From Thermus caldilimi (lineage in GTDB: Bacteria > Deinococcota > Deinococci > Deinococcales > Thermaceae), in assembly GCF_004684245.1 (NCBI RefSeq), contig NZ_CP038452.1, positions 1,784,796 to 1,848,795 of the forward strand: a stretch of 64,000 nt of DNA, read 5' to 3'. Under the pieces are notes generated by a model that was not told the DNA's origin, made no database searches, and saw nothing but the letters and a program-made list of their open reading frames with translations. The position numbers and the translations under genes were made by a program. This document shows, one piece after another, positions 26,271 through 29,043 of this stretch. Position 1 is the first letter of the stretch; each line of letters opens with the position of its first letter.

Positions 26271-27584
26271 TTGACCCACGAGGCCGTCTGGCAACACATC
26301 CTGGAACACATCCGCCGCAACATCACCGAGGTGGAGTTCCACACCTGGTTCGAGCGCATCCGCCCCTTGGGCATCCAGGATGGGGTACTCCAGCTGGCGG
26401 TGCCCACCTCCTTCGCCCTGGACTGGATCAAACGCCACTACGCCGAGCTGATCCAGGAGGCCTTGGGCCTCCTGGGGGCCCAGCCTCCCCGGTTTGAGCT
26501 CAAGGTGGTCCCCAGCGTGGCCGTCCAGGAGGATATCTTCCACACTCCTGCCCCTTCCGAAGCCACCAAGCCCAACCTCAACCCCAAGTACACCTTTGAA
26601 AACTTCGTGGTGGGGCCCAACAACTCCATGGCCCACGCGGCGGCAGTGGCGGTGGCCGAGTCCCCTGGAAGGGCCTACAACCCCCTTTTCATCTATGGGG
26701 GCGTGGGCCTGGGTAAGACCCACCTCATGCACGCCGTGGGCCACTCCGTGGCCAAGCGTTTCCCCCACCTGAAGATCGAGTATGTGTCCACGGAAACCTT
26801 CACCAACGAGCTCATCAACGCCATCCGCGAGGACCGGATGACGGAGTTTCGGGAGCGCTACCGGTCCGTGGACCTCCTCCTGGTGGACGACATCCAGTTC
26901 ATCGCCGGCAAGGAGCGCACCCAGGAGGAGTTCTTCCACACCTTCAACGCCCTCTACGAGGCCCACAAGCAGATCATCCTCTCCTCCGACCGGCCCCCCA
27001 AGGACATCCTGACCCTCGAGGCCCGCCTCCGCAGCCGCTTTGAGTGGGGCCTCATCACCGACATCCAACCTCCCGACCTGGAAACCCGCATCGCCATCCT
27101 CAAGATGAACGCCGAGCAACGGGGTCTCAGGATCAGCGAGGAGGTGCTGGAGTACATCGCCCGGCAGGTGACCTCCAACATCCGCGAGCTAGAGGGTGCC
27201 CTGATGCGCACCATCGCCTACGCTTCCTTAAACGGGGTGGAACTCACTCGCACCGTGGCCGCCAAGGCGCTTTCCGACATCTTCGCCTCCAAGGAAGTGG
27301 AGGTGGATCCCCACGAGATCGTGCGCAAGGTGGCGGAGTACTTCGCCCTGCGCCCGGAGGATCTGGTGGGGGGTGGCCGACGCAAGGAGGTGGTTTTACC
27401 CCGCCAGATCGCCATGTTCCTGGTACGGGAACTCACCCGCTCCTCCCTCCCGGAAATCGGCCAGCTCTTCGGAGGACGGGACCATACCACCGTCCTCTAC
27501 GCCATCCAAAAGGTTCAGGAGCTTTCAGAAAGCGACCGTGAGGTGCAGAAGCTGCTCCGCAGCCTGAAAGAGGCCCTGTCATGA
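26271..27584 (+). CDS. dnaA: Chromosomal replication initiator DnaA
   Basis: 437 residues from a TTG start, as expected for Thermus DnaA (436). Domain I (1-80, [21 protein letters not shown]), a short linker, then the AAA+ domain with Walker A GGVGLGKT (143-150) and Walker [26 protein letters not shown]. Box VII region follows. Domain IV at the C terminus carries the helix-turn-helix and signature [14 protein letters not shown]. It binds the 13 boxes directly downstream and opens the origin. A possible -10 TAGAAT (26238-26243) lies in the 64-bp gap to mnmG, without a clear -35. Confidence 0.98.
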
Positions 27585-27885
27585 TCCCTGTGGATAACCT
27601 GTGGATAACCCTGTGGATAACCCTGGTTTTCCTGTGGATAACCTTGTGGACAAACTGTGGAAAACCAATCCCCCTTCGGAGCCTGTGGATAACTGGTCAG
27701 TTATCCACATCTTATCCACAACCCGAGGCCAGTTATCCACAAGGGTTTTCCACAAGCCTTTTTCGCTCCCATACGGCATTTTCTACCCCTTATCCACATA
27801 TCCACAGCCTCTATTACTACGACTACTATTCTTTTAAGATCTTTAAGAAACCCATAGTAGAAGCAGTAGAGAGGAGGCAAACCCC
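27585..27885. other. oriC: Replication origin oriC
   Basis: The dnaA-dnaN gap holds 13 DnaA boxes. Seven point forward: TGTGGATAA at 27589, 27600, 27612, 27633 and 27684, TGTGGACAA at 27645, TGTGGAAAA at 27656. Six point backward: TTATCCACA at 27701, 27712, 27733 and 27790, TTTTCCACA at 27746, ATATCCACA at 27798. The forward boxes are all on the left and the reverse boxes all on the right, converging at about 27697. Spacing of the first three is 11-12 bp. An AT-rich stretch (27807-27870) follows. The Thermus thermophilus origin is also reported to have 13 boxes and an AT-rich region before dnaN. Confidence 0.97.
27811..27870. other. Duplex-unwinding region with DnaA-trio-like element
   Basis: Right after the last DnaA box (27798-27806) and a GCCT spacer, the bottom strand read 3' to 5' from left to right gives GAT AAT GAT GCT GAT GAT (27811-27828). 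This is the layout of the DnaA-trio described for Bacillus: box, GC spacer, then 3'-GAT triplets running away from the box. A run of A/T follows (TTCTTTTAAGATCTTTAAGAAA). The dnaN ribosome site GAGGAGG is at its right edge. Confidence 0.72.
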
Positions 27886-29043
27886 GTGAAGGTGAAAGTT
27901 CCAAAAACCCTGCTCACCGAACATGTGGCCTTGCTGGAACGGGTCATCCCCACGCGAAGCTCCAATCCCCTTTTCACCTACTTGGGCTTGGCCCTTACGC
28001 CAGATGCCCTGGTGCTGTTCGGAACCAACGGCGAGGTGGACCTGGAAGTGCGCCTGGAACTTCCCACGGAGGGAGAGGGGCGTTTTTTGGTTCCCGCCCA
28101 GCCTTTCTTCCAGCTGGTGCGCAGTCTTCCCGGGGATCAGGTAGAGCTGGACTTCGGTGCGGAGCTTTCCCTCTCCTCGGGTTCCTTCAGTACCCGGCTG
28201 AGCCTTGCCCCCGACGAAGGCTACCCGGAGCTTTTCTTCCCCAGCCTGGAAGGCCCCGCAGAGCCCTATCCCCTCCAGACCCTTTTGCCGGTGGAGGAGC
28301 TTCTTAAGGCGCTATCCCACGTGCGCTATGCGGCCAGCAACGAGGAGTACCGGGCGATTTTCCGGGGCGTCCAGCTGGAGTTTTCCGAAGGCGGACTTCG
28401 CTCCGTGGCCTCCGACGGGTATCGCCTGGCCCTTTACAGGCTTGCCAAGCCCCAACCCTTTGCCAAGAAGGTGGTGGTGCCTGCCCGCAGTGTGGACGAG
28501 ATGGTGAGGGTTCTGAAGGGTATGGGCGAGGGGGAGGTGGCCCTGGCCCTGGGCCCGGGGGTTCTAGGCCTCGCCACCAGCGGTTCCCAAGGCCCTGCCG
28601 CCACCGGCAAGGGACAGCTGCGTATGGCTGTCCGGCTTATGGAAGGGGAGTTCCCGGACTATGAGCGGGTGATCCCCAAGGAGTTCCCCCTGAAGGCGGC
28701 CTTCGAGGTGGAGGCCTTCCGCGAGGCCCTCCGCCGGGTGAGCGTCCTCTCTGACCGGCAAAACCATCGGGTGGATCTTCTTTTTGAGGAGGAGCGGGTG
28801 TTGCTCTCCGCTGAGGGGGATTACGGCAAGGGGCAGGAGGAGGTTCCCGTGCACCTCGAGGGCATGCCCCTGGCGGTGGCCTACAACGCCCGCTATCTTT
28901 TGGAGGCCCTTTCCCCCCTTTCCGGCCTGGCGGTGTTGTTGCTTTCCGGGCCCACCAGCCCTAGCCTGGTGCGCCCAGGGGGGGCTTCCCCAGTGGAGGC
29001 GGCGGAGGGGTACCAGGCGGTGGTGGTGCCCCTCCGGGTGTAA
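27886..29043 (+). CDS. dnaN: DNA polymerase III sliding clamp (beta subunit)
   Basis: 385 residues from a GTG start with ribosome site GAGGAGG. Three topologically similar domains as in beta clamps; recognisable stretches are FGTNGEVDLEVRLELP, VRYAASNEEYRAIFRGVQLEF, VASDGYRLALYRL, LMEGEFPDYERVIP, SVLSDRQNHRVDLL and the end VVPLRV. The dimeric ring encircles DNA and tethers the replicative polymerase. It directly follows oriC, so its promoter lies within the AT-rich part of the origin. Closely matches the 375-residue Thermus thermophilus clamp. Confidence 0.97.
   Translation: MKVKVPKTLLTEHVALLERVIPTRSSNPLFTYLGLALTPDALVLFGTNGEVDLEVRLELPTEGEGRFLVPAQPFFQLVRSLPGDQVELDFGAELSLSSGSFSTRLSLAPDEGYPELFFPSLEGPAEPYPLQTLLPVEELLKALSHVRYAASNEEYRAIFRGVQLEFSEGGLRSVASDGYRLALYRLAKPQPFAKKVVVPARSVDEMVRVLKGMGEGEVALALGPGVLGLATSGSQGPAATGKGQLRMAVRLMEGEFPDYERVIPKEFPLKAAFEVEAFREALRRVSVLSDRQNHRVDLLFEEERVLLSAEGDYGKGQEEVPVHLEGMPLAVAYNARYLLEALSPLSGLAVLLLSGPTSPSLVRPGGASPVEAAEGYQAVVVPLRV

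Follow-up and report, generated by a model that had tools for sequence, protein, structure and literature searches.

Sequence evidence for a DnaA-trio with A- or C-centred triplets, and for a mirrored array on the opposite strand, at the Thermus replication origin

Structure of the origin region

The window, a 64-kb stretch of the Thermus caldilimi genome, contains dnaA and dnaN separated by a 301-bp intergenic region (Table 1). The latter carries 13 DnaA boxes, seven in the minus and then six in the plus orientation. We take this region to be the Thermus oriC, an assignment that rests on the dnaA-boxes-dnaN context, a local change of skew, and the literature. A 102-aa ORF (27581-27889) passes through the whole of oriC; as it shows no codon-position bias, it is probably a by-product of the box spacing.

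Table 1. Features of the dnaA-dnaN region, in window coordinates
Feature	Position	Strand	Description
dnaA	26271..27584	+	ORF of 437 aa, TTG start; NCBIfam TIGR00362 DnaA, 567 bits, E 3e-170
Seven DnaA boxes, minus orientation	27589..27692	-	Starts 27589, 27600, 27612, 27633, 27645, 27656, 27684; offsets shared by 25-27 of 27 Thermus genomes
Four DnaA boxes, plus orientation	27701..27754	+	Starts 27701, 27712, 27733, 27746; identical offsets in 27/27 Thermus
Tandem DnaA boxes beside the trio	27790..27806	+	TTATCCACA at 27790-27798 and ATATCCACA at 27798-27806, 8 bp apart; at -20 and -12 in 27/27 Thermus
4-bp GC-rich spacer	27807..27810		GCCT here; GGCC or GCCC in most relatives
Predicted DnaA-trio array	27811..27828	- (bottom)	3'-GAT AAT GAT GCT GAT GAT-5', away from the boxes
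AT-rich core between the two arrays, probable duplex unwinding element	27829..27854		TTCTTTTAAGATCTTTAAGAAACCCA; 22-33 nt among Thermus genomes
Mirrored opposite-strand trio-like array	27855..27869	+ (top)	3'-GAT GAC GAA GAT GAT-5', from the dnaN side towards the core
AGGAGG, probable dnaN ribosome-binding site	27872..27877	+	Sequence
dnaN (beta clamp)	27886..29043	+	ORF, GTG start; NCBIfam TIGR00663, 180.7 bits

From the tandem boxes to the end of the first array, the top strand (27790-27828) reads TTATCCACATATCCACA GCCT CTA TTA CTA CGA CTA CTA, where TTATCCACATATCCACA is the tandem pair and TTATCCACA-TATCCACA precedes the spacer. The earlier note had read the bottom strand as six triplets behind a 4-bp spacer, and this reading is exact: GAT accounts for four of the triplets, and AAT and GCT for one each. 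The repeats run 3' to 5' away from the box, that is, rightward on the bottom strand, and the tandem boxes lie 4 bp from them; in DnaA-trio systems, a DnaA box, usually a tandem one, is expected within 16 bp. The published definition asks for at least three consecutive 3'-NAN-5' triplets (PMC8287927). Triplets 1-3 (GAT AAT GAT) form such a run, and triplets 5-6 (GAT GAT) are of the same type. Were every triplet required to be A-centred, the fourth one, GCT, would not qualify; the 2021 survey requires only three triplets. Since C is a functional substitute in B. subtilis (PMC10721633), GCT limits the strict definition and not the membership in the class.

Both strands of the window were scanned with a matrix of six triplets that had been trained on 39 Deinococcota origins outside Thermus. 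The array ranked first with 32.3 bits, and the best match outside oriC had 6.5 bits. The runner-up among non-overlapping matches (17.4 bits) lies on the opposite strand of the same intergenic region, at 27852-27869. In a whole-genome scan of 111 Deinococcota, the pattern TCCACAGSCCCTAYTAYTA with at most two mismatches was matched in all 50 Thermaceae, usually once and at oriC. Judged by its sequence, the triplet repeat beside the last DnaA box is a real DnaA-trio and not a product of chance.

Conservation in Deinococcota

We gathered the sequences that precede dnaN in 27 Thermus genomes and in about 65 further genomes of Deinococcota; one relative in this set has a DnaN 98% identical to that of the window. 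Genera and families are denoted below by our own g and f labels. The distance from the dnaA stop codon to the start of the trio is exactly 226 bp in each of the 27 Thermus. All 13 boxes are found at constant offsets in at least 25 of these genomes, and the total length is unchanged. The mean column entropy is 0.86 for the non-box DNA in the 226-bp stretch, 0.27 for the trio, and 0.06 for the boxes. The outcome that the earlier note had named as refuting, retained boxes with unconserved triplets, is not observed, as the trio columns are conserved across the 27 Thermus.

In particular, triplets 1 and 3 are CTA on the top strand in 27 of 27 Thermus, and triplet 4 is C-centred in 26 of 27. Perfect arrays of six CTA triplets are frequent among Meiothermus-type genomes. 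The layout is retained in families f2, f3, and f4, and family f5 retains the first two or three triplets. Overall, the trio occurs at oriC in every Thermus genome and in the other Deinococcota families sampled, being shorter in f5, and its conservation there is in register.

The region 27585-27810 has a rigid orisome geometry in the 27 Thermus species, with highly variable inter-box DNA and identical distances. The spacing of the two tandem boxes beside the trio is 8 bp in Thermus and in most genomes of the Meiothermus type, and 9 bp in g2, g3, f3, and f4. In one Meiothermus-type genome, the trio-bearing origin (locus L117, G042 contig 2, 512443, and locus L128) is ∼11 kb from dnaN; therefore, the trio is separable from this gene. 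One genome of family f3 (G053) has two exact copies of the box-spacer-trio unit on separate contigs (C334:57398 and C437:15518), which could represent a second replicon, a duplication, or a mixed bin.

DnaA residues contacting the trio

In B. subtilis, DnaA residues E183, N187, I190, I193, R202, K222, E223, and E228 contact the trio or adjacent DNA, and N196 touches the third base (PMC10721633). We aligned the window DnaA over its length to the B. subtilis DnaA from structure 8btg of the basal unwinding system (BUS). The former eight residues are identical in the window protein (respectively, E175, N179, I182, I185, R194, K214, E215, and E220), and the arginine finger R264 corresponds to R256. 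The sole differing trio-contact residue is D188, which takes the place of N196. In total, the cognate DnaA has its single-strand binding and base-capture residues at nine positions identical to those in 8btg.

Central bases of the triplets

In 66 origins of families f1-f4, comprising 396 triplets, the central base on the bound strand is A in 332 cases and C in 64 cases, and never G or T (on the top strand, T 332, G 64, A 0, C 0). The two other positions vary mainly by transitions: on the top strand, base 1 is C in 356, T in 37, and G in 3 triplets, and base 3 is A in 347, G in 42, C in 6, and T in 1. As related genomes among the sampled species representatives are non-independent, these counts overstate the number of events, and changes on a tree provide a safer estimate. 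On a dnaN tree, which was built quickly and has several forks without support, the central positions have undergone at least 17 changes summed over the six triplets, all of them exchanges of A and C when read on the bound strand. If each change had a one-in-three chance to be of this kind, 17 out of 17 would have p near 1e-8. No central transitions were seen, although they are expected to be commoner.

C-centred triplets are present in Thermus, g5, and f4; in the 66-origin set, there are none in the Meiothermus-type genera g2-g4, in f2, or in f3. At loci L076-L085 of f4 and at the f5 loci, C centres appear as early as triplet 2 or 3, e.g., CTA CGG TTA CGA CTA CGG. Because of such triplets, a definition based on NAN runs would miss the origins of several relatives, which suggests that NAN-based origin finders may under-call some high-GC origins.

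In vitro, the B. subtilis system accepts C in place of the central A, and neither G nor T; in vivo, a C centre yields better initiation than G or T, the amine being contacted by Asn187 (PMC10721633). The A/C-only centres in Deinococcota look like the natural counterpart of this substitution, and the 66 natural origins would thus extend a laboratory result on nucleobase capture to an evolutionary pattern. A tie of C centres to heat or high GC content is plausible.

A mirrored array on the opposite strand

The earlier note described a single element. Its trio sequence stands, but an array on the opposite strand was overlooked: when the top strand is read 3' to 5' from the dnaN side (27869-27855), five trio-like triplets face the main trio across the AT-rich core. 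With the window itself as the null for array scores, a four-triplet run on the opposite strand exceeds the 99.99th percentile in all 27 Thermus (loci L009-L035). Same-strand runs, which would continue the trio into the core, exceed it in none of the 27, and we rejected a forward extension of the main trio for this reason. Compared to dinucleotide shuffles, the mirrored array has p < 0.05 individually in 24 of the 27 genomes. When the register is set by bases 1 and 3 alone, its centres on the complementary strand are 94 T, 13 G, 1 A, and 0 C. Hence the bound-strand centre is A or C in 107 of 108 cells, a fraction that in shuffles has a mean of 0.65 and a maximum of 0.77.

The sequence of the mirrored array differs among species, as does the length of the core. 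The array is also found in the nearest genus, g5, is weak or degenerate in Meiothermus-type genomes, and is largely absent from f2-f5; therefore, we rejected it as a phylum-wide feature. It has no cis DnaA box of its own, as there is no minus-strand box with at most two mismatches between 27806 and 28060. Apparently, the mirrored array in Thermus is an undescribed copy on the other strand. We infer that it could serve as a candidate second DnaA capture site, in which case the origin would perhaps have two strand-capture points and not one.

Alternative explanations of the triplets

The three-base pattern could be a by-product of a hairpin, either a fold of the dnaN leader RNA or a cruciform, in which the triplets make up one side of an inverted repeat. 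The stretch from the spacer to dnaN does fold as RNA better than shuffled sequences in one genome (z -3.4), and every genome shows partial complementarity between its two arms. However, pairing within a genome is no stronger than between swapped arms of different genomes (the observed value was reached in 431 of 5000 permutations), RNAalifold yields no common structure for 23 genomes (0 pairs), and the trio is kept in families without the mirrored arm. Given neither covariation nor a consensus structure, we rejected the hairpin as very unlikely despite the single-genome fold.

It is highly improbable that the conserved triplets are merely easily melted AT-rich DNA, or that they are a complementary-strand site for another protein, as for DnaD at the DnaD recognition element (DRE) of B. 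subtilis. The complementary strand also has a regular, DRE-like TnnT spacing (PMC10201434). On the other hand, central T-to-G changes on this strand break TnnT and yet are the only ones tolerated, and composition leaves both the 3-bp register and the A/C-only centre unexplained. Moreover, this genome encodes a helicase loader of the DciA family, and a profile search that recovered PF07261 (DnaB_2/DnaD-type) in the B. subtilis control found no PF07261 protein here; the DnaD/DnaB_2 protein of the DRE pathway is thus absent. For PF01695, the only match above the cut-off in this genome was DnaA itself.

Finally, it is hardly credible that the trio is constrained as a coding sequence: the frame of the ORF crossing oriC (27581-27889), which overlaps the stop codon of dnaA and the start codon of dnaN, is open over 226 bp in 27 of 27 Thermus, but we rejected coding in the absence of a codon-position bias (non-box variation is equal at the three positions, Kruskal-Wallis p 0.96), and, in addition, the frame is closed in neighbouring genera, the trio-dnaN lengths differ by non-multiples of three, and coding offers no reason for A/C-only centres.

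A model of origin opening

The element at 27811-27828 is very probably the DnaA-trio part of a BUS at the Thermus oriC, which a bottom-strand DnaA oligomer would open. Bound to the tandem boxes and set in place by the 4-bp GC spacer, DnaA would begin the oligomer, and adjacent protomers would grip two bases per triplet, the 3'-G and then A or C. This capture would stretch the bottom strand, so that the duplex would open from position 27811 towards the right, into the AT-rich core. For Thermus, DnaA binding, unwinding of the duplex, and the point where it starts are predictions of this model, according to which the trio would fix the unwinding point. The model is limited by triplet 4, which breaks the NAN definition of the published survey. 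We presume that GCT is a working trio, as C retains the exocyclic amine contacting the conserved Asn, which is N187 in B. subtilis and N179 in the window DnaA. The box-proximal trio annotated in T. maritima is only supportive, and a separate TAG repeat bound DnaA (PMC10316083); therefore, box adjacency is no proof of trio function.

A tentative extension treats the Thermus oriC as a two-strand capture origin. DnaA, and not DnaD, might also take the top strand at 27855-27869, and the converging assemblies would hold the AT-rich core open and leave it free for one DnaB helicase per strand, with DciA and with divergent polarity. In this reading, the natural trio alphabet of the phylum would be 3'-[G/A][A/C]N-5', and NAN searches would miss C-centred origins. 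The main weakness of the two-strand model is the absent cis box. The eTrio of T. maritima, reached by DnaA on distal boxes (PMC10316083), is a possible precedent for access to the box-less mirrored array from afar. B. subtilis uses DnaD to take the strand that faces the trios (PMC10201434). The arrival of the second helicase on the other strand at bacterial origins is called unclear in current papers (PMC10201434; PMC13326638). As a conserved, box-less, opposite-strand copy of a DnaA single-strand site, the mirrored array is a testable candidate for a role in this step in a group without DnaD.

Comparison with known systems

DnaA-trios were reportedly described in B. subtilis by Richardson et al. 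in 2016. The minimal B. subtilis system was reconstituted in 2019 (PMC6669920), and Pelliciari et al. (2021) predicted trios in 85% of 2070 origins (PMC8287927). The identification of a DnaA-trio at the Thermus oriC, as made in the earlier note, is upheld by sequence, position, strand, register, conservation, and DnaA contacts. Its claim to extend the element to the phylum is outdated, as unwinding by D. radiodurans DnaA via boxes and trios was published in 2021, with boxes and trios of its own origin needed for strand separation in vitro (PMC8287927); the Thermus trio is not the first in Deinococcota. Among the papers searched, we found none describing trios at a Thermus origin; the tables that supplement the 2016 and 2021 surveys may list them.

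The origin resembles the B. subtilis BUS (incC boxes #6/#7 and trios) in the conserved DnaA contact residues. Unlike the latter, it has a C-centred triplet 4, a distance of 8 bp between the boxes nearest the trio, 13 boxes whose offsets are fixed, and a second, opposite-strand array, and no DnaD-type protein was found in the genome. The BUS of the D. radiodurans oriC belongs to the same phylum, and its boxes and trios were predicted and are required in vitro, whereas the Thermus one is known from sequence; D. radiodurans was compared via the literature, genomes of the genus Deinococcus not having been recognised in the phylum set. Closely spaced, clustered DnaA boxes are shared with the T. thermophilus oriC (Schaper et al., 2000), as far as that work is presented in PMC6727663 (cited also in PMC7988490). 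Similar to the T. maritima eTrio (TAG x3; PMC10316083), TAG repeats lie in the unwinding element, and there they are bound by DnaA as a single strand. Unlike the main trio here, the eTrio is not adjacent to a box and is bound from distal boxes.

By these comparisons, the triplet motif at the Thermus oriC is a phylum-wide copy of the DnaA-trio known from other bacteria, and it includes a natural variant in which C replaces A. The A/C-only trio centres and the mirrored array in Thermus go beyond earlier knowledge.
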